A DNA stretch of 64,000 nt from Terriglobia bacterium (GTDB lineage Bacteria > Acidobacteriota > Terriglobia > Bryobacterales > Bryobacteraceae): assembly GCA_020073345.1 (NCBI GenBank), contig JAIQFI010000006.1:62001-126000 (forward strand), in the 5' to 3' direction. A program made the translations under genes and the position numbers. The notes under the pieces are model-generated. The model did no database searches. It was not told where the DNA came from and saw only the letters and a program-made list of their open reading frames with translations. Below, in pieces: positions 50,933 to 58,977 of this stretch (position 1 is its first letter; every line of letters starts with the position of its first letter).

Positions 50933-51101
50933 ATTCCGGCCCGCCGCTTATCCCTCTCTCCCAGCTATCCCTGCGTAAAAAAACCCACTTACGATGGGCT
51001 GCCTCGCGCAGACCAGCAGCAAAAGGCGTGTTTTAGTCCTTTTTGCCTATGTTTTGCGTTGCGGCACTTCCCGTGCACTAGAGATGGCCAGAGACATCAA
51101 A

Positions 51102-52232
51102 ATGACCACCTCAACACTTACCGCAACCTCGGGAATCCTGGATAGCCATGCCATGAAGTTTCTTGCCGGATGCCGGGGTCCCTGCATCACCATTGTGGTT
51201 CCCTCCCATCATCCGGGCGCACAGGAAGGCTCCCGCAAGGCTCTGGTTCACGGCCTGGTCCGCACAGCCGGTGAACAAATGGCACGCGGAAAACTAGCCG
51301 GCCGCGCCTCGGAATTGCTGGCTCCTCTCGAAGAAATCGCCCAGGAATCGGGCGCCGAGGCAGGCGGAGCCGGATTCGCGATCTTCCGCTCACCGGAGTA
51401 CACGGCGCGATACTACCTGCCGGACAAGCCGGGGAAGACGCCGGCGGAAAAGATGGTGATTGCCGATCACTTTTATCTAACACCCTTCGTTAGCGACGCG
51501 TTCGCGCCGCACGAGTTCTTCGTTCTCGGGCTCAGCATAAAACATCTGCGGCTATTCCGTTACCTGAATGGAAAGTGCCAGGAGTTGCCCCTGCCGGCCG
51601 CCGTTCCCGCAAGCCTGGATGCCGCGGGCGGATTCGACAAGCCCGATCATCAATTGGAGAACCGGTCCGCCTCCGGGCCATCGACCGGCGCCATGCATGG
51701 CGTCCATGTTGGTACTCTTTCGGATCGCGAGGCGTTCCCCGAGTATCTTCATCATTTCTTCGAAATCGTGGACCGTGGGCTGAAGGCGACCGTAGACGGC
51801 AAGCCGCTCCTGCTGATGGGTGTCCACGAGGAAGTGGCTGCCTACCGGCGAGCCGCCAAGCACCCGCACATCCTAACGCCCGACTGCCTGGGCAACACCG
51901 AGTTTCTAACGGCCTCGAACATCGCCGTTAGTGCCGCGGACGCCTGCGGCAAGCACTATCAACTCCTGGCGGAGCGCGTTCTCGCGGAATATCTGGAAAT
52001 GCCGGACCGCGGGCGAACCCTGGCCGACGTCCCCGCCGTTCTGCGGGCGGCCGGCGAAGGCAGAGTACACCGGCTGTGTGTGCGCACCGGGGCGGAGATT
52101 GCCGGCCCGGGCGGCGAAGATCAGATCAATGCCGCGGTCGTCGAGACGTTGCGCAATGGAGGAGAAGTATTCATGCTGCCGCAGGATAAGATGACGGCCG
52201 CACAGCCACTGGCCGCAATCTTGCGCTATTAG
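51102..52232 (+). CDS. baeRF-family protein (bacterial archaeo-eukaryotic release-factor homologue)
   Basis: 376 residues from ATG 51102 (MTTSTLTATSG); starts at 51084 or 50994 are possible but less likely. The layout matches baeRF: N-terminal PCITIVVPSHHPGAQEGSRK, a middle domain FFVLGLSIKHLRLFRY, a central linker with HGVHVG, a second core PLLLMGVHEEVAAYRRA, and an eRF1-domain-3-like end (LCVRTGAEI, GGEVFMLPQDKM). No GGQ tripeptide is seen, so it should not terminate translation. Relatives include ribosome-hibernation factor Balon and mycobacterial Rv2629. It stands before two universal stress protein genes. Confidence 0.75.
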   Translation: MTTSTLTATSGILDSHAMKFLAGCRGPCITIVVPSHHPGAQEGSRKALVHGLVRTAGEQMARGKLAGRASELLAPLEEIAQESGAEAGGAGFAIFRSPEYTARYYLPDKPGKTPAEKMVIADHFYLTPFVSDAFAPHEFFVLGLSIKHLRLFRYLNGKCQELPLPAAVPASLDAAGGFDKPDHQLENRSASGPSTGAMHGVHVGTLSDREAFPEYLHHFFEIVDRGLKATVDGKPLLLMGVHEEVAAYRRAAKHPHILTPDCLGNTEFLTASNIAVSAADACGKHYQLLAERVLAEYLEMPDRGRTLADVPAVLRAAGEGRVHRLCVRTGAEIAGPGGEDQINAAVVETLRNGGEVFMLPQDKMTAAQPLAAILRY

Positions 52233-52265
52233 CACGTCTGAGCGAATCGTCAGGAGCCAGTCATC

Positions 52266-53123
52266 ATGAAGCTCTCAAAGATTCTGGTCCCGGTGGATTT
52301 CTCCGAGCAAGGAGCAATCGCCGCGCAACACGCAGCGGCGCTGGCGCGGCATTTCGGCGCCGGACTGGTTCTGTTGCACGTGAATCCGATCCTGGTTCCC
52401 GTGCTGACAGTGCCTGGCGACTTTAGCGGGGCGATCGATACCGGCTGGATCACGGCTCTGGAAGCCCAAGGGCGCAAAGAACTGGAGACCTATGATCAGG
52501 CCGAGTTTGGCGGAGTAGACGTGAGAAGGATGGTCGTGACGGGCGATCCTGCCGCGAGCATCGTCGAAGTCGCCCACATCGAAAGACCCGGCTTGATCGT
52601 GATGCCGACACATGGATACGGCCCCTTCCGCAGATTCCTGCTCGGCTCCGTTACCGCCAAGGTTTTGCATGATGTCGAGGTTCCCGTGTGGACGGGCGCA
52701 CACCTGCAGAAGACTTCGGCGACATGGAAGCGGATCGGCAGAGTGATCTGCGCCATCGAGCTCCATAGGGCCGAGCCGGCTTTGGTCTGGGCGCGCGAAT
52801 TCGCTTCTGAATTTGGAGCGGAACTGATTGTAGTCCATGCCGTTCCGGAGTCGGAACCCCGGGATCCAGCGGCCATGAGCGCCGGCCCCATGGGTTCACA
52901 AGCGCGCGAATACATCCGGTGCCTGCAACAGAAACTTTCCGCGGCCGGTGAAATTCTGATCGAGGAGGGAAATCCTGCCCAGGTGGTGCAAGCCGCGGCC
53001 ACCCGGCGCAATGCCGATCTGGTCGTGATCGGACGAAGCCCGCGGGAGGGAGTTTTGGGGCGTTTGCGGCCAAACGCCTATTCGATTGTGCGTGATGCTC
53101 CGTGTCCTGTTGTGAGTGTATAA
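52266..53123 (+). CDS. Tandem-domain universal stress protein 1
   Basis: 285 residues made of two Usp domains. The first begins KILVPVDFSEQGAIAAQHAA and has THGYGPFRRFLLGSVTAKVL, close to the ATP-binding GxxG-x9-GS pattern but with Pro for the first Gly. The second (from about 155) ends VVIGRSPREGVLGRLRPN and is degenerate. Such proteins accumulate in dormancy, hypoxia and starvation. It lies between the baeRF gene and the LPXTG protein gene on the same strand, 33 and 36 bases away. Confidence 0.9.
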   Translation: MKLSKILVPVDFSEQGAIAAQHAAALARHFGAGLVLLHVNPILVPVLTVPGDFSGAIDTGWITALEAQGRKELETYDQAEFGGVDVRRMVVTGDPAASIVEVAHIERPGLIVMPTHGYGPFRRFLLGSVTAKVLHDVEVPVWTGAHLQKTSATWKRIGRVICAIELHRAEPALVWAREFASEFGAELIVVHAVPESEPRDPAAMSAGPMGSQAREYIRCLQQKLSAAGEILIEEGNPAQVVQAAATRRNADLVVIGRSPREGVLGRLRPNAYSIVRDAPCPVVSV

Positions 53124-53159
53124 GCGGATGCGGACGGATGGAAGTTTGAAGGAGGAATT

Positions 53160-53867
53160 ATGCGTATCAAAGCAATCCCCGTCTTAAGTAGCTTGCTGCT
53201 GTTGGGAGGAATGGTTTTCGCCAGCGACTACGACAAGCGGACGGAAGTTAGATTCAATGAGCCGGTGATGATCGCCGGTGTTCCCGTGGTGACACTGGAA
53301 CCCGGTCTATACGTAATTCGTTTGATGAACCACGATCATAACCGGAACATCGTGCAGGTCTTCAATGAGCGCGAAGATCACTTGTTCACGACGGTTCTCG
53401 CGATTCCAAACTACCGGCTGTTTCCCAAAGACAAGACTACGTTCAGTTTCTGGGAAACCCCTCGGGGCAATCCGACCGCCCTCAAGGCGTGGTTCAGCCC
53501 GGGTGACCGTTGGGGCCAGGAGTTTGTCTATCCCAAGGGTCTGGCTGCGACCATCGCACGTGACGCCGGTGAGTCCGTTCTAACCACAACCGCGGAAACG
53601 GTCGCTGAATTCGATACCTCACCGGTTGCCGAAGTGACCAAGACGGGCGAGGAGCAACCGTTGGAGGAAGCATTTACTGCGCCGGAGCCCGTAGCAGCCG
53701 CGCCGGAACCGGCACCTGCGGTGGCAGAAGTTGCTGTAGCCGAGCCTGCGCCAGAGCCGGAAGCCTTACCGGCAACCGGAAGTCCCTTCTTCGCGATCGG
53801 ACTGGTCGGGTTGATGGCGGCCGCGGCCGGCCTATCGCTCAGGCGGCTGGCGTATCGCAAGTCGTAA
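53160..53867 (+). CDS. Secreted protein with LPATG sorting signal (sortase substrate)
   Basis: 235 residues. A signal peptide (about 1-21, ending VFAS) leads to a globular beta-rich domain (about 22-140) with PGLYVIRLMNHDHNRNIVQVF and TTVLAIPNYRLFPKDKT, a domain I have seen in acidobacterial secreted proteins without known function. A low-complexity Ala/Pro/Glu linker (about 165-202) follows, then LPATG at residues 203-207, a hydrophobic stretch (208-227) and the basic tail RRLAYRKS. This is a complete cell-wall sorting signal. The sortase gene follows after 42 bases. A GGAGG ribosome site is at 53151-53155. Confidence 0.88.
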   Translation: MRIKAIPVLSSLLLLGGMVFASDYDKRTEVRFNEPVMIAGVPVVTLEPGLYVIRLMNHDHNRNIVQVFNEREDHLFTTVLAIPNYRLFPKDKTTFSFWETPRGNPTALKAWFSPGDRWGQEFVYPKGLAATIARDAGESVLTTTAETVAEFDTSPVAEVTKTGEEQPLEEAFTAPEPVAAAPEPAPAVAEVAVAEPAPEPEALPATGSPFFAIGLVGLMAAAAGLSLRRLAYRKS

Positions 53868-53909
53868 GAGAGTCGTGAGTCGTTAGATCGGTCATAAGGA
53901 GTTGTTGTC

Positions 53910-54647
53910 ATGGTCGTGCGGGTCCGCCTTCAACCGGTATGGAAGCTGTTCCTACGGGTGACGGCGGACCTGCTTGTTTTGGTGGGCGTCGCCGGAGTCC
54001 TGGTGTGGCTCTGGGGTCTCTCAGACGGGGTTATCTATCAGTACACGCAAAGCGTGCATTTCAGTAAGGATGTCGGGAACGGCGACGCCGGGATTGCGGG
54101 GAGTCCAGCGATTCCTGAAGTCAGCCCGCTACCCGGCGTCGCACGGTGGATAGGCCCTGCATTACCCCAGCGCGATCCGCTGCTATTAGGCCGTCTCGAA
54201 ATACCGAGCATCCAATTGACCGTGATGATGCGCGAGGGCGTCGATGAGGCGAGCCTTCGCAAAGCGGCTGGACATTTGCCATCCAGCGCGCTTCCCGGTG
54301 AGTCCGGGAACGTCGTTGTGTTGGGCCATCGCGATACATTTTTCCGGCCGTTGCGCGGCATCGCACAGGGCGATCCCATTCGGGTGAAAACGCGGAGCGG
54401 CTCCTTTGATTATGTTGTGGACTCCATCCAGGTCGTAGCGCCGGAGCAGTCGCTTGCGTTCGATCGAGATATGCCTGCTAAGTCGATCACTCTGATCACC
54501 TGTTTTCCTTTCAACTACGTGGGGCCGGCCCCTCGGCGCTTCATCGTGCGGGCCCGAATGACTGCTTCTGGAAATGACCGCTCTGAAATGGACCCCGCCG
54601 TGCACGGAAACCTTCCGGAGACTCGTTCACTGGAGAAGATGCCATGA
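53910..54647 (+). CDS. Sortase (class D/E-like transpeptidase)
   Basis: 245 residues. An N-terminal membrane anchor (about 13-32, VTADLLVLVGVAGVLVWLW) is followed by a periplasmic sortase domain beginning near residue 90 (LLLGRLEIPSIQLTVMMREG). The catalytic residues are His140 (VVLGHRDTFF), Cys198 (ITLITCFPF) and Arg210 (PRRFIVRA). The TLxTC pattern suits class D or E. It should cleave LPATG between Thr and Gly and attach the neighbouring protein to an amine acceptor. Sortases are rare in diderm bacteria. An ATGA links it to the next gene. Confidence 0.92.
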   Translation: MVVRVRLQPVWKLFLRVTADLLVLVGVAGVLVWLWGLSDGVIYQYTQSVHFSKDVGNGDAGIAGSPAIPEVSPLPGVARWIGPALPQRDPLLLGRLEIPSIQLTVMMREGVDEASLRKAAGHLPSSALPGESGNVVVLGHRDTFFRPLRGIAQGDPIRVKTRSGSFDYVVDSIQVVAPEQSLAFDRDMPAKSITLITCFPFNYVGPAPRRFIVRARMTASGNDRSEMDPAVHGNLPETRSLEKMP

Positions 54648-55519
54648 AAGTTCTGATGGCCACCGACGGATCGAAGCATGCGGCCCGCGCGCTGACGACG
54701 GCTTGCCGTATCCTATCGCCCCAAGACCGTGAAATTGACTTGTTGTGTGCGGCGCCGGCCGTGGGCGCGAAAGAGCACGCCCACCGCGCGAAGCTTTGCC
54801 GCCGCGCCACGCGTATTCTGGACGCTGCCCGGGCAGCCTTAGCCGCCGACGGCGTCAGCGCAAAACCAGTCGTTCAAATCGGCTCGCCCGCGCGAGTATT
54901 GGTGGCTGCTTCTCTGAACTACGACGTCACCGTGGTGGGCGCGCAGAGCCATAAGAACGGATCCTCGGCGGGCCTGGGCCCCGTCGCAAGCCGCCTGGCC
55001 GAACATTCCAACGCCACTGTTCTCATCGGCCGGGGACTTCGCAGCGATACGGGCGTGAAAATCCTGGCGCCGGTGGATGGATCGGAAGGATCGCTACGGG
55101 CGCTGGACAAACTGGCGGCCCTGGTGGACCTATCCACGGCCGACGTGACTCTGGTCCACGTCATAGAAACGCCATGGCTGCATGCGGGCGAGGATCAGGA
55201 ATGGATCGGATACGAAGAAGAGAAAGAAGAGGAGATCGATCCGCAGGCGCAATTCGAGCGCGAGTTCGAACGGGAAGGCGATGAAATTCTCGAAAACGCC
55301 CGTGCCAGGCTACCCGTCCGGACCACGGTCACGACGCTCATCTATCGCGGGATTCCGTCTGAAGAGATCCTGGGGGAAGCCGAAACGGGAGACTATGACC
55401 TGGTGGTGATGGGCGCCAGCGGCGTCGTGGATCTGAAACACCAGATGCTGGGCAGCGTCTCGAGCAAAGTGGCCTGGAACGCGCCGTGCTCGGTGTTGCT
55501 GGTTCGTGCCACGGACTGA
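54644..55519 (+). CDS. Tandem-domain universal stress protein 2
   Basis: 291 residues, two Usp domains. The first (MKVLMATDGSKHAARAL) has a degenerate nucleotide loop; the second (from about 143, ILAPVDGSEGSLRALDKLA) has GASGVVDLKHQMLGSVSSKV, matching the ATP-binding loop. An acidic insertion (YEEEKEEEIDPQAQFERE, about residues 187-205) is unusual for Usp and might be a flexible protein-binding arm. Its ATG overlaps the sortase stop, so it is co-translated with the sortase. Confidence 0.9.
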   Translation: MKVLMATDGSKHAARALTTACRILSPQDREIDLLCAAPAVGAKEHAHRAKLCRRATRILDAARAALAADGVSAKPVVQIGSPARVLVAASLNYDVTVVGAQSHKNGSSAGLGPVASRLAEHSNATVLIGRGLRSDTGVKILAPVDGSEGSLRALDKLAALVDLSTADVTLVHVIETPWLHAGEDQEWIGYEEEKEEEIDPQAQFEREFEREGDEILENARARLPVRTTVTTLIYRGIPSEEILGEAETGDYDLVVMGASGVVDLKHQMLGSVSSKVAWNAPCSVLLVRATD

Positions 55520-55556: not shown

Positions 55557-56024
55557 ATGTCAAGAGCCGCGTCCGTTTCGTGCGCTGTTCTCATCCCGCT
55601 TTTGGCTGCCGCCGCCGCAGGGCAGGTTCTCACAGCGAACTGGGATAACGTGAGGATGATTGCCGCGGGGACGGACGTTCGCGTGGCCGCCGACAATTCG
55701 AAGCCGATTCAGGGAAAGCTGGACAGCATCACCGACAACAACCTCGTAATCAAGCAAGGGACGGGCACGCAATCCTTCGTGCGGGCGGAGATCCACAGCG
55801 TTGGTATCAGGAGAAACGGGCACCGCTTGCGTAAAGTACTCATTGGCATCGGGGTCGGAACTGCGGCCGGTCTCGCCATCGGGGGCGCGACAGCGAACAA
55901 CTGCACCGGTATCGGGTGCGGGGGAATGAGAGTGGCTACCGGCGGGCTCGTCGGACTCATTGGCGGAATGATCACTGGCCTGGTATGGTCCAGCGGCGAA
56001 TGGCGCCAAGTCTACGCGCAGTAG
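55557..56024 (+). CDS. Secreted glycine-zipper hypothetical protein
   Basis: 155 residues with a signal peptide (about 1-22, ending AAAAAGQ). A small beta-barrel-like domain follows (GTDVRVAADNSKPIQGKLDSI, about 37-57). Two Gly-rich hydrophobic segments then occur (IGIGVGTAAGLAIGG and ATGGLVGLIGGMITGLV), a glycine-zipper pattern. Two Cys lie between them. No function is known. The product is probably periplasmic or membrane-associated. Confidence 0.7.
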   Translation: MSRAASVSCAVLIPLLAAAAAGQVLTANWDNVRMIAAGTDVRVAADNSKPIQGKLDSITDNNLVIKQGTGTQSFVRAEIHSVGIRRNGHRLRKVLIGIGVGTAAGLAIGGATANNCTGIGCGGMRVATGGLVGLIGGMITGLVWSSGEWRQVYAQ

Positions 56025-56187: not shown

Positions 56188-58956
56188 TCAGAATTTAAGC
56201 CGGATTCCGCCCCAAGCGCCAATCGGAGCGCCCGGCGCGTAGAAGGTGGCGCGCACCACAGGGAATTCCCCGTTCACGGCCGGAAGGGGGCGTGCAATGA
56301 ACGTGCCGCTGTCGGTGAATCCAGTCGGCCCAAGCTGCGCCCCCGTATAGTAACGATGATCGAGCAGGTTGTTGATCTCGACGAACAGCTGCACCCGCGG
56401 GTGCACCTGGTAGTGCCCCCCGAGATTGACCACTCCGTATCCAGGCGACGTTCCGGGCCCCAGATAGTATTTTCCGTCGGGCTGGCTCAAGTTGTTTTCG
56501 TTCCCGCGTGCGTACGATGTCGATGCCGCCTGGAAATTGAGATCGATGGAAATCTTCTTGGTGGCCTGGAGCGCCGCGTAGGCCTTCAGCATATGGCGCG
56601 GAACCAGCGGAATGCGATCGCCTGGCAGGATCTGGATGGTGCCGTTCAATCCGCTGCTTCCGGCTAAAGCCTGGTCATTGGCGCTGTTGCTCGAGCCGTC
56701 CACGGTCTCAGGACTCTGGTACGTAGCGTCCAGAAAAGTGTATCCTCCACCCACAGTGACCCGCCAGATTCGGTCGCTGATATCGACCTCCAGCCCCTGG
56801 CGGCGCGTCGCGCCGAAATTCTTGAAATAGCCAAAGCCGGTCTGCGTCGATGCCACAAAAAGAATGTCGTCGTGGTTCTCGGCCCGGAACCACCCGGCGC
56901 TCCAGGTGAAACGGCTTTCCTGCCCACCTCGCAGTCCCGCTTCCAAGGTCCGGGCGACCACCTGTTGAAGCGGAGGATCGCCGGCCAGAGCGTTGGGCAG
57001 CTTGCAAGGCTGGTCCGGATCCGCGCAACCGAGCTCGATGGAAGTCGGCGCGCGGCTGCCTTCGCTGTAGCCGAAATAGGCATTCAGCATGCGCGCCGGA
57101 TTGAAGGTCACGCCGGCCGCGGGATTGAACCGGCCAAACGAATTCGTGCCGGTAAGCGAACCGCTGCCACTGGCGGGCTGGATCCGGTCATGGTTGACGA
57201 TGGTGGTGCGATTGTAGCGCCCGGACACCGTAAAATTCCATTTGCCAGCCGAAAGAGTGTCGGTCGCGTAGACGCTACCGGTGTTGATTCGTCCGTGCAG
57301 ATCCACGCGCGTGTCGAACGGCTCACCATCGACGGTGCCCCCGCTCACGCCGTCACCGAACGCGTTGACACCAGTGATGCTGCGATCGGGATTGAGATAA
57401 CCGAGTTGAGAAGATTGCTGGAAATTCACGACGCTGCCGTCAAAAGCCGCGCCGGCCGTGAATTGATTGCGGCTGCCCTTGGGCGATCCCAGCCAACTCA
57501 TTTGGGCGGACAGCCCGTAGTTGTTCTGTTGGGAGTGGGTGCGGTTGAGAAGTCCGTTGCATTTCTCCGCCGGCTCGTCGTTCTGAAGCGCTTGCGCGAT
57601 GCAGCGCCAGGACGGAAATGGTGTGTTGGTGGCATTGGCTCCACTGGTGGGGAATCCCGTGTAGCCCGCGGCAGTCAGCGTCCGGATGTCGGCAGCGCTC
57701 GGCTGATAGACCTGCTGATCAAGCGAGTCTTCGTTGAGATCGCCATTCAGAGTGTTCGTGCGAATGTAGCGGTAGTAGGCGTTCCCGGCAATCGACAGCG
57801 TACTGCGGAAACTGTGCGTCCCGTTGACGCTCAAAAACGGAGCGCGGTTGGCGGTGATATCGGGCAGCGTATAGATGCTCGCGTAGTCGCGGGCGAGAAA
57901 TCGCTGTTCCTGCAGACCATTGCCAATCAGCGCATTGTTGGCGTAGGCAAGAGTCAGCCCGAGCGTCGTCAGCCCATGTTGCCAGCGCAATTTGCCAAAG
58001 AATTGCCGCACGTCGGAAGGAGAGGCAGCTCGCCATCCATCCTCGAAGAACATATTCGCGGCGAGATACCAGTTCAGTCCTTTGGCGTTGGAGCCTCCAT
58101 GCTCGAATTCAGCGGCTTTGCGCCCGAAACTGCCTCCGCTGATCTGGAGTTCGGTCCCCGGATTACTGAGACCGTCGTTGGTCTCGATCGCAAGCGCACC
58201 GCCCAGGGTGTTGAGCCCGAACATCGGATTCGATCCCGGCATCAAGGTGGCTTCCGCGATAGCGACTCGCGGAATCAGGTCCCAGCTCACCACGTCGCCA
58301 AAGGGCTGGTTCAGGCGCACTCCATCCATGTAAACCGAGAGACCCTGCGGCGTCCCGAGCAGGGGCGAGGCGGTGTAACCGCGATAGTTCACATCGGCTT
58401 GGAACGGATTGCCCTGGACTTCATTGACGTGCACGCCATCCAGGCGCCGGTTCAGAAAGTCCGAGAGATCGAGCGCGCCGCTGTTCTCGATGTCCTGCTG
58501 GTTGGCTGTTTGGACCGGCGATGCTACTTCATTCGGCGCCAGATCGACTCCGGGCAGAGGCGTGGTCCCCACCACGTCGACTTTGAAAGACGCGGTGCCG
58601 AGCGCCATCGTAATGTTGCGCGATACCGGCACCTCGGAACGCACGTCCACTAAGACCGACTGCGTGGCGAATCCGTCCCTGGAGACGGTCAGCCGGTAAC
58701 GGCCGTAGGGCAAAGTCTCAAAGGTGTATTTACCCTGGGCATCGGTGTCGAAGCTCCGATTCACCCCTGCGGCCGGATCTTGCAGTTGGCCCGATGCTTG
58801 CATCGGTGCGCCGGAGGCGTCCTTGACTTCCAGTCGTATTTCACCGGCGGGGCGCTGCGCGGGCAACCTTCCGGTCACTGCCAGAAGGCCCAGGAGGATT
58901 GTGACTGAAAAGACCAAGCCTCTCCGGAAGCCAAGTTGAACTGAACCCATAAACAT
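56188..58956 (-). CDS. TonB-dependent outer-membrane receptor with carboxypeptidase-like N-terminal domain
   Basis: About 922 residues from ATG 58956 (a GTG at 58971 or ATG 58950 are alternatives). Signal peptide (about 10-33, [17 protein letters not shown]), then a CarboxypepD_reg-like beta-sandwich (about 36-110: [19 protein letters not shown]), a plug domain ([19 protein letters not shown]) and a large barrel. The end of the chain, GGIRLKF, closes with Phe. It takes up a substrate using TonB energy. The divergent ECF sigma/anti-sigma pair could regulate it, but no N-terminal signalling extension for FecR is seen. Confidence 0.92.
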
Positions 58957-58977
58957 AGAGTCCCGGAACACGCTTAT

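Follow-up and report, generated by a model that had tools for sequence, protein, structure and literature searches.

We analysed a pair of adjoining genes in a 64,000-nucleotide stretch of DNA (contig JAIQFI010000006.1, positions 62,001 to 126,000; hereafter the window) from Terriglobia bacterium, a soil-dwelling member of the phylum Acidobacteriota. The first gene encodes a secreted protein with a C-terminal LPATG sorting signal (the substrate, 53160..53867), and the second encodes a sortase (53910..54647). The results point to a conserved and apparently dedicated sortase system of the Acidobacteriota, which is present four times in this genome and is accompanied by a VWFA protein in many near relatives. 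Here, a diderm phylum uses small, self-contained modules of substrate and sortase, up to several per genome and often with a VWFA protein. We consider it probable that the window pair joins its substrate to the cell wall, in the manner proposed below. The original prediction, made from the window alone, of a sortase in a diderm with one adjoining substrate is supported by these results.

Sortases are best known from the walls of monoderm bacteria. The host genome encodes a BamA-type OM_YaeT protein (452 bits, cut-off 297), marking it as diderm, and a TonB-receptor-like frame in the window (56188-58971, named by reading) is a further pointer in this direction. Among 14 control genomes, the sortase family PF04203 was found in just three, B. 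subtilis, C. glutamicum and L. lactis, so that a sortase in a diderm is unusual by comparison with these controls. In the literature, a review calls sortases unknown in strictly diderm phyla and treats them as Gram-positive features (PMC7203096), a second text also treats them as Gram-positive features, adding that a few proteobacteria have a sortase-related enzyme (PMC1586193), a third records no sortase in an armatimonadete (PMC4072686), and one table row gives a sortase count of 6 for Solibacter usitatus (PMC3174227). We found no description of the pair in open-licence full texts on sortase with Acidobacteria, Acidobacteriota or Solibacter, and our searches of such texts returned no report of the acceptor to which a diderm sortase joins its target.

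A secreted LPATG protein and its sortase

The substrate (235 residues, + strand) consists of a signal peptide, assigned by reading, a beta-rich domain at approximately residues 24-143, a linker rich in Pro, Ala and Glu, and the sorting signal (53766..53864, + strand). The latter has the three elements of such signals, with LPATG at residues 203-207, a hydrophobic stretch that forms a helix at residues 209-234 in the predicted structure, and a basic end, RRLAYRKS. The signal scores 2.3e-13 against a model of the acidobacterial tails in which it is itself one row. Its match to the general anchor family PF00746 is weak (15.1 bits, under the cut-off of 20), and no NCBIfam model, TIGR01167 included, matched the anchor at E ≤ 1. 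The beta-rich domain passes no Pfam cut-off, nor does any of five members of the substrate family that were scanned, and neither Pfam nor NCBIfam gave a VIT or VWA match for the window substrate. The predicted structure has ten-residue-block mean pLDDT values of 86-98 over residues 31-170 and of 58-70 over residues 171-210. Foldseek returned no match at E ≤ 0.001 in PDB or in the viral BFVD for the full-length model, whose disordered linker may weaken the search.

The start of the sortase gene (245 residues, + strand) lies 42 bases beyond the end of the substrate gene. The enzyme belongs to the sortase superfamily (PF04203, 95.1 bits, cut-off 26.6), and its predicted structure displays the sortase fold with a long N-terminal helix. 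At the sequence level, the catalytic residues His140, Cys198 and Arg210 are invariant in all 79 sortases of our alignment (A9).

Four pairs in one genome

The genome from which the window derives (6.23 Mb, 97.5% complete) contains four sortases, four full substrate paralogues and one truncated substrate copy. A search with the tail-only model gave four matches at E ≤ 5e-12, and no more than about 2.2 kb separates each of these from a sortase, which sets the observation apart from chance; since these four tails are rows of the model and score highly by construction, the informative result is that nothing else scores, the next match being at E 0.054. The tails read LPATG (window), LPKTA, LPDTA and LPATG. 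With four sortases and four tails, each near a sortase, the genome holds four one-to-one pairs. This rules out the single system that had been proposed, which missed the three further pairs. A count of LPXTG tails in the genome, which the same proposal had called for, yielded with the tail model three in addition to that of the window, each near its own sortase, rather than the many other LPXTG proteins that would have refuted the proposal. In PMC3237569, a dedicated sortase-target relationship is worded as one enzyme with a single target per genome; here there is one tail per sortase, in four pairs.

In the pair on contig C68, a malic-enzyme-like gene (named by reading, with no family search made) lies between substrate and sortase. 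The truncated fifth copy lies on contig C5 (L102, 4917-5237) as a 107-residue frame that lacks the tail and is followed by stops, and no sortase was found within the 10 kb fetched there.

Distribution of the pair in the Acidobacteriota

To get a broader picture, we surveyed 297 genomes of the phylum, each at least 85% complete; the counts are not corrected for kinship. Sortases were found in 59 of the 297 genomes, with 83 places tallied. The tail model matched 48 genomes at E ≤ 1e-3, and all 48 have a sortase. After removal of the 18 genomes whose tails had built the model, 30 of 30 tail-bearing genomes have a sortase in comparison to 41 of 279 overall, although named records, which are possibly among the remaining genomes, supplied another eleven rows of the model. 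Nine more genomes match at E 0.001-0.01; eight of these lack a sortase, and in those eight the matches do not cover the LPxT part. At the level of the locus, a sortase is found no more than 4.5 kb away for 57 of 69 tails, and 56 of 83 sortases have such a tail nearby. Within the genus of the window, 17 of 23 genomes have a sortase, its own included.

A model of the domain without the tail matched 35 of the 297 genomes, 30 of which have a sortase (17 of 22 without the genomes that built it, versus 46 of 284). The five domain-bearing genomes that lack a sortase (G106, G112, G160, G164 and G217) encode seven proteins or fragments with the domain, all of which lack an LPxT tail. Tail-less domain proteins are also found in sortase-bearing genomes (L229, L235, L236, L237, L238, L243 and L244), and the domain protein of L234 is truncated where its contig ends. 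Five proteins that do bear the tail (L230, L231, L232, L233 and L245) have no sortase in the stretch fetched, though one is present in their genomes. The existence of tail-less relatives indicates that the domain can work unanchored, as would be expected if the sortase acted mainly as a protease that hydrolyses the tail and frees the domain into the periplasm or for passage across the outer membrane. From the same relatives, however, it seems that a sortase is not required for the domain to be secreted, and the invariant triad and the fold are those of transpeptidases. We regard such a releasing activity as very unlikely.

In one of these loci (L237, 4911-6426, genome G257), the tail-less relative is encoded directly before a VWFA gene. 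This arrangement suggests that the domain and the VWFA protein belong together even without an adjoining sortase.

Over 71 loci, the pairwise distances of substrate and sortase correlate with r 0.607, a value reached in none of 2000 permutations (highest 0.221), and the nearest neighbour is identical for both proteins in 28 of the 71. For the window, both have L119 as first and L120 as second neighbour, while the C72 and C68 pairs of the same genome are mutually nearest for both. The sample of 297 genomes, along with the loci described in the next section, bears out the expectation that the pair would be conserved in relatives.

A VWFA protein encoded within related modules

We compared loci from two directions. 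The sortase-first set comprises 80 loci, made up of the window, the three paralogues in its genome and 76 of the 79 places outside it. A full-length substrate model, built from the three paralogues, matched 45 of the 80 at E ≤ 1e-3, some by the tail alone; counted by stretches, it matched 46 of 81, one of which (L102) is without a sortase. We sorted 79 sortase tree rows by cargo and obtained 30 with a domain of the window type (DOM), 8 with a second domain (OB, a label given by reading), 4 of GN type, 8 with other tails and 29 with none recognised. In a quick tree built on few columns, the sortase branches follow the type of cargo, for which 6 changes suffice over the 50 labelled rows as opposed to a mean of 18.8 after shuffling. 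GN and OB sortases each group on a single branch (support 92 and 90%), 4 changes are required for DOM, and 5 for the mixed group of other tails. The OB cargo, in loci L048, L051, L053, L057, L059, L090, L114 and L117, has LPKTA or LPKTG tails on a different domain, with its sortases on a single branch, and is encoded downstream of the sortase in 7 of the 8.

The substrate-first set comprises the best 80 of 167 relatives from a contig scan with nine close substrates; since these queries bear tails and stand near sortases, the set leans to the window's kind. All 80 substrates have a tail, 79 by pattern (62 LPxTA, 8 LPxTG) and L165 with LPATT. In 69 of the 80 loci, a same-strand sortase gene lies no more than 4 kb downstream. 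Eight of the remaining 11 loci end within 2 kb of the substrate, while L162, L165 and L171 have about 6 kb without such a gene, L171 with a sortase on the other strand.

Between substrate and sortase, a VWFA gene is present in 63 of the 69 loci and a malic-enzyme-like gene in 14, with both in 13; the VWFA component was out of sight for the original prediction, made from the window alone. Five of the 69 have neither, among them L119, L120 and L121, the nearest kin of the window. We scanned ten VWFA proteins picked from ten loci and all ten matched TIGR03436, over the cut-off for the one shown in full; no sorting tail was seen in ten aligned VWFA proteins. In the sortase-first set, a VWFA match was found in 13 of 80 loci: 11 of the 31 with the window domain (the 30 DOM rows and L080), the GN-type target of L072, and L103, whose upstream end is cut. 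A VWFA gene as a general rule of the module is ruled out by these counts, 63 of 69 in the substrate-first loci with a sortase, whose substrates are the closest to that of the window, but 11 of 31 in the broader sample of sortase-first domain loci. Thus, the substrate-VWFA-sortase module is common near the lineage of the window but not general, and the window holds a variant of it without the VWFA gene. The window genome has 26 TIGR03436 matches, 25 of them over the cut-off, none of which lies on contigs C93, C72 or C68 or near the window pair. From the module comes a first hint of function for both the beta-rich domain, which has no name, and a portion of TIGR03436, a large VWFA family of the Acidobacteriota.

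The malic-enzyme-like gene recurs inside the module, for example at 8947-10767 of L101, where it was likewise named by reading. Two records that carry the acidobacterial module bear other titles, Bordetella parapertussis for L121 (CALQCC020000029.1) and Planctomycetota bacterium for L196 (JABDGM010000028.1), and are probably misnamed.

The closest known system is the GN sortase with its VIT/VWA target (TIGR03784/TIGR03788). Both have diderm hosts, a single substrate encoded by the adjoining gene and an LPXTG-like tail, and a VWA domain is involved in GN systems as it is in many of the modules found here. However, the GN target carries VIT and VWA on the anchored protein itself, whereas in the modules found here the VWFA protein is distinct from the one that is anchored, and a VWFA gene is missing beside the window pair. 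The window sortase scores 78 bits against TIGR03784, under the cut-off of 158.25, and the four GN-linked sortases sit on another branch of the tree. We reject a GN-type system for the window on the grounds of cut-off, cargo and tree. The common module, with VWFA as a gene of its own, may be regarded as the GN VIT/VWA architecture in split form. Of four targets of TIGR03788, a 'marine proteobacterial' model, that were scanned in the phylum sample, three exceed the cut-off (L058 5705-7735, L072 5552-7630 and L091 5579-7609).

Sortase class, proposed mechanism and acceptor

The window sortase is nearest to class D. Its best NCBIfam models are NF058671 for SrtD (118.6 bits, cut-off 140) and NF033746 for class D (112.5 bits, cut-off 165), and one of the three paralogues (P0005) just passes NF058671 with 141.4 bits. 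Each of six sortase class models is matched by all 79 sortases at 1e-10, so that matching by itself does not separate the classes. The best solved relative by sequence is 2ln7, which we take to be the class D enzyme of B. anthracis. Class D is the best-scoring class, and the LPxTA tail that predominates in the substrate-first set is a further likeness; the differences are that both class D cut-offs are missed, that the window tail is LPATG and that the host is diderm.

We propose that the signal peptide exports the substrate, whose C-terminal helix would hold it in the inner membrane until the neighbouring, membrane-bound sortase cuts LPAT|G. The new Thr end would then be passed to an amine, for which the side chain of meso-diaminopimelate (meso-DAP) in lipid II or peptidoglycan is the most likely source, and the beta-rich domain would be tethered to the wall in the periplasm via its flexible Pro/Ala/Glu linker. 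Where a gene for a secreted VWFA protein stands between the two, as in many relatives, its product is a probable partner of the anchored domain; in the window copy, this gene may have been lost or never present. The Acidobacteriota have meso-DAP. The original prediction suggested that the acceptor may be something other than ordinary peptidoglycan; given the leaning to class D, ordinary meso-DAP peptidoglycan is the simplest acceptor and the one to which the sortase most likely joins its substrate. We infer transfer to meso-DAP by analogy with the class D enzyme of B. anthracis. In PMC3208642, sortases are described as cleaving between Thr and Gly before transfer to lipid II, and the B. anthracis enzyme (there SrtC) as cleaving LPNTA peptides, with the proteins that it anchors bound to m-DAP; PMC4498605 describes the anchoring of BasH to forespore peptidoglycan by this enzyme. 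As simple systems, the modules would lend themselves to identifying the acceptor that a diderm sortase uses.

Several observations weigh against this reading. The window sortase is above the general sortase model but below every class cut-off, and by fold its Foldseek hits lean elsewhere, with 21 of the top 25 titled sortase C and one titled sortase D (top hit 5k9a). In the phylum sample, pairing is not universal: no tail was found within 4.5 kb of 27 of the 83 sortases, and 12 of the 69 tails are farther from any sortase or on another contig. The correlation of distances could result from vertical descent of the locus by itself. Finally, PMC3208642 notes that SrtA of B. anthracis failed to attach an LPETG peptide to m-DAP, implying that such attachment is not simple to reproduce.

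The resemblance to class C enzymes raises the alternative that the sortase links substrate subunits to one another, from Thr206 to Lys126 of the next, in a pilus-like or periplasmic fibre. VWA domains occur in the tip proteins of pili, which would fit the VWFA protein of the module, and most top Foldseek hits of the sortase model carry the sortase C title. Residues 118-126 of the substrate (W-G-Q-E-F-V-Y-P-K) resemble the pilin motif WxxxVxVYPK given in PMC3516528. A loosened form of this motif fits 45 of 81 sequences and VYPK alone 49 of 81, while a loosened E-box fits 8 of 81, including FSFWETPRG in the window. The strict pilin motif and the strict E-box, on the other hand, each fit 0 of 81, and the sortase falls far under the class C cut-off (70.8 of 160 bits). 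As further differences from the class C pili of Gram-positive bacteria, with which the VYPK near-match and the fold of the enzyme are shared, the ten aligned VWFA proteins are tail-less. Lys occupies the Lys126 column in 106 of 125 distinct tail-bearing domains versus 2 of 16 tail-less ones; the columns of the following helix drop as much, as the tail-less domains lose the Lys together with that helix, so that the contrast is not specific to the Lys and does not discriminate. Moreover, the paralogue on contig C93 has His in this column, with Lys adjoining. We therefore consider a polymerising role improbable, and its fuller form, a covalent, sortase-built polymer in a diderm phylum with a pilin-like subunit joined from Thr206 to Lys126 and the VWFA protein of the three-gene module as adhesive partner, would be more improbable still. 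Attachment of the substrate to peptidoglycan is the reading that we prefer.

Universal stress protein genes around the pair

The pair lies between two genes for tandem universal stress proteins (Usp), all on the + strand, in the order given by the original prediction. The first Usp (52266..53123, 285 residues) and the second (54644..55519, 291 residues) each match PF00582 in two stretches (7.7e-46 and 5.3e-40; 156.6 and 137.7 bits, cut-off 24). The 42-base gap between substrate and sortase was correctly described, as was the ATGA link by which the second Usp gene overlaps the sortase stop by 4 bases. That account left out the gene directly upstream in the same compact run, which encodes an archaeo-eukaryotic release-factor-like protein of the baeRF type (50994..52232, + strand; PF18845, 77.8 bits, cut-off 31.5; NCBIfam NF052287, 79.7 bits, under the cut-off of 330). 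The gaps along the run of baeRF, Usp, substrate, sortase and Usp are 33, 36 and 42 bases, followed by the 4-base overlap.

This five-gene block is kept in L119, from Terriglobia bacterium SRVP_10, at 75-83% protein identity, with baeRF as its first gene at 79% and the two Usp proteins at 78 and 83%. The L119 match to baeRF begins at residue 16, and its true start may be slightly downstream. Similarity at the DNA level spans positions 51051-55517 of the window, ending just before the end of the second Usp gene.

We searched the other loci with the two window Usp proteins (E ≤ 1e-4), a search that distant Usp genes could escape. Apart from L119, none of the substrate-first loci (79) gave a match, nor did any of the 79 sortase-first loci other than the window. 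In 31 further stretches from the genus, a Usp was found on both sides in just one, L327, which judged by its length is the same contig as L119, while L311 and L318 have one match each, elsewhere. Thus, of the conserved order of Usp, LPXTG protein, sortase and Usp that had been predicted for relatives, the central pair is conserved, and flanking Usp genes beyond L119/L327 were not found. A stress-linked system conserved across relatives is rejected beyond this one relative, and the earlier view that the stress genes form part of the conserved unit is not supported. The Usp neighbours are a local feature, and the description of the system as stress-induced rests on the gene layout of two genomes.

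A narrower proposal, which is compatible with the other readings, is that baeRF, the Usp genes and the pair are expressed together as a single stress operon, with Usp proteins regulating the sortase or its substrate. The compact spacing and the conservation of the block in L119 speak for such an operon; set against them are the 28 Usp domain matches in the genome, by which the setting may be incidental, and the scarcity of Usp on both sides of the pair, seen in no examined locus apart from L119/L327. We consider this arrangement unlikely to reflect a stress operon, though less so than the alternatives weighed above. A scan for sigma-70 patterns found 0 promoter-like sites in comparison to a mean of 1.3 in shuffled sequences, which speaks neither way, and 4 terminator-like sites in comparison to a mean of 5.0.

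Directly after the second Usp gene, and outside the DNA similarity shared with L119, positions 55557-56024 of the window encode a small, probably secreted protein, which passes no family cut-off in Pfam or NCBIfam.

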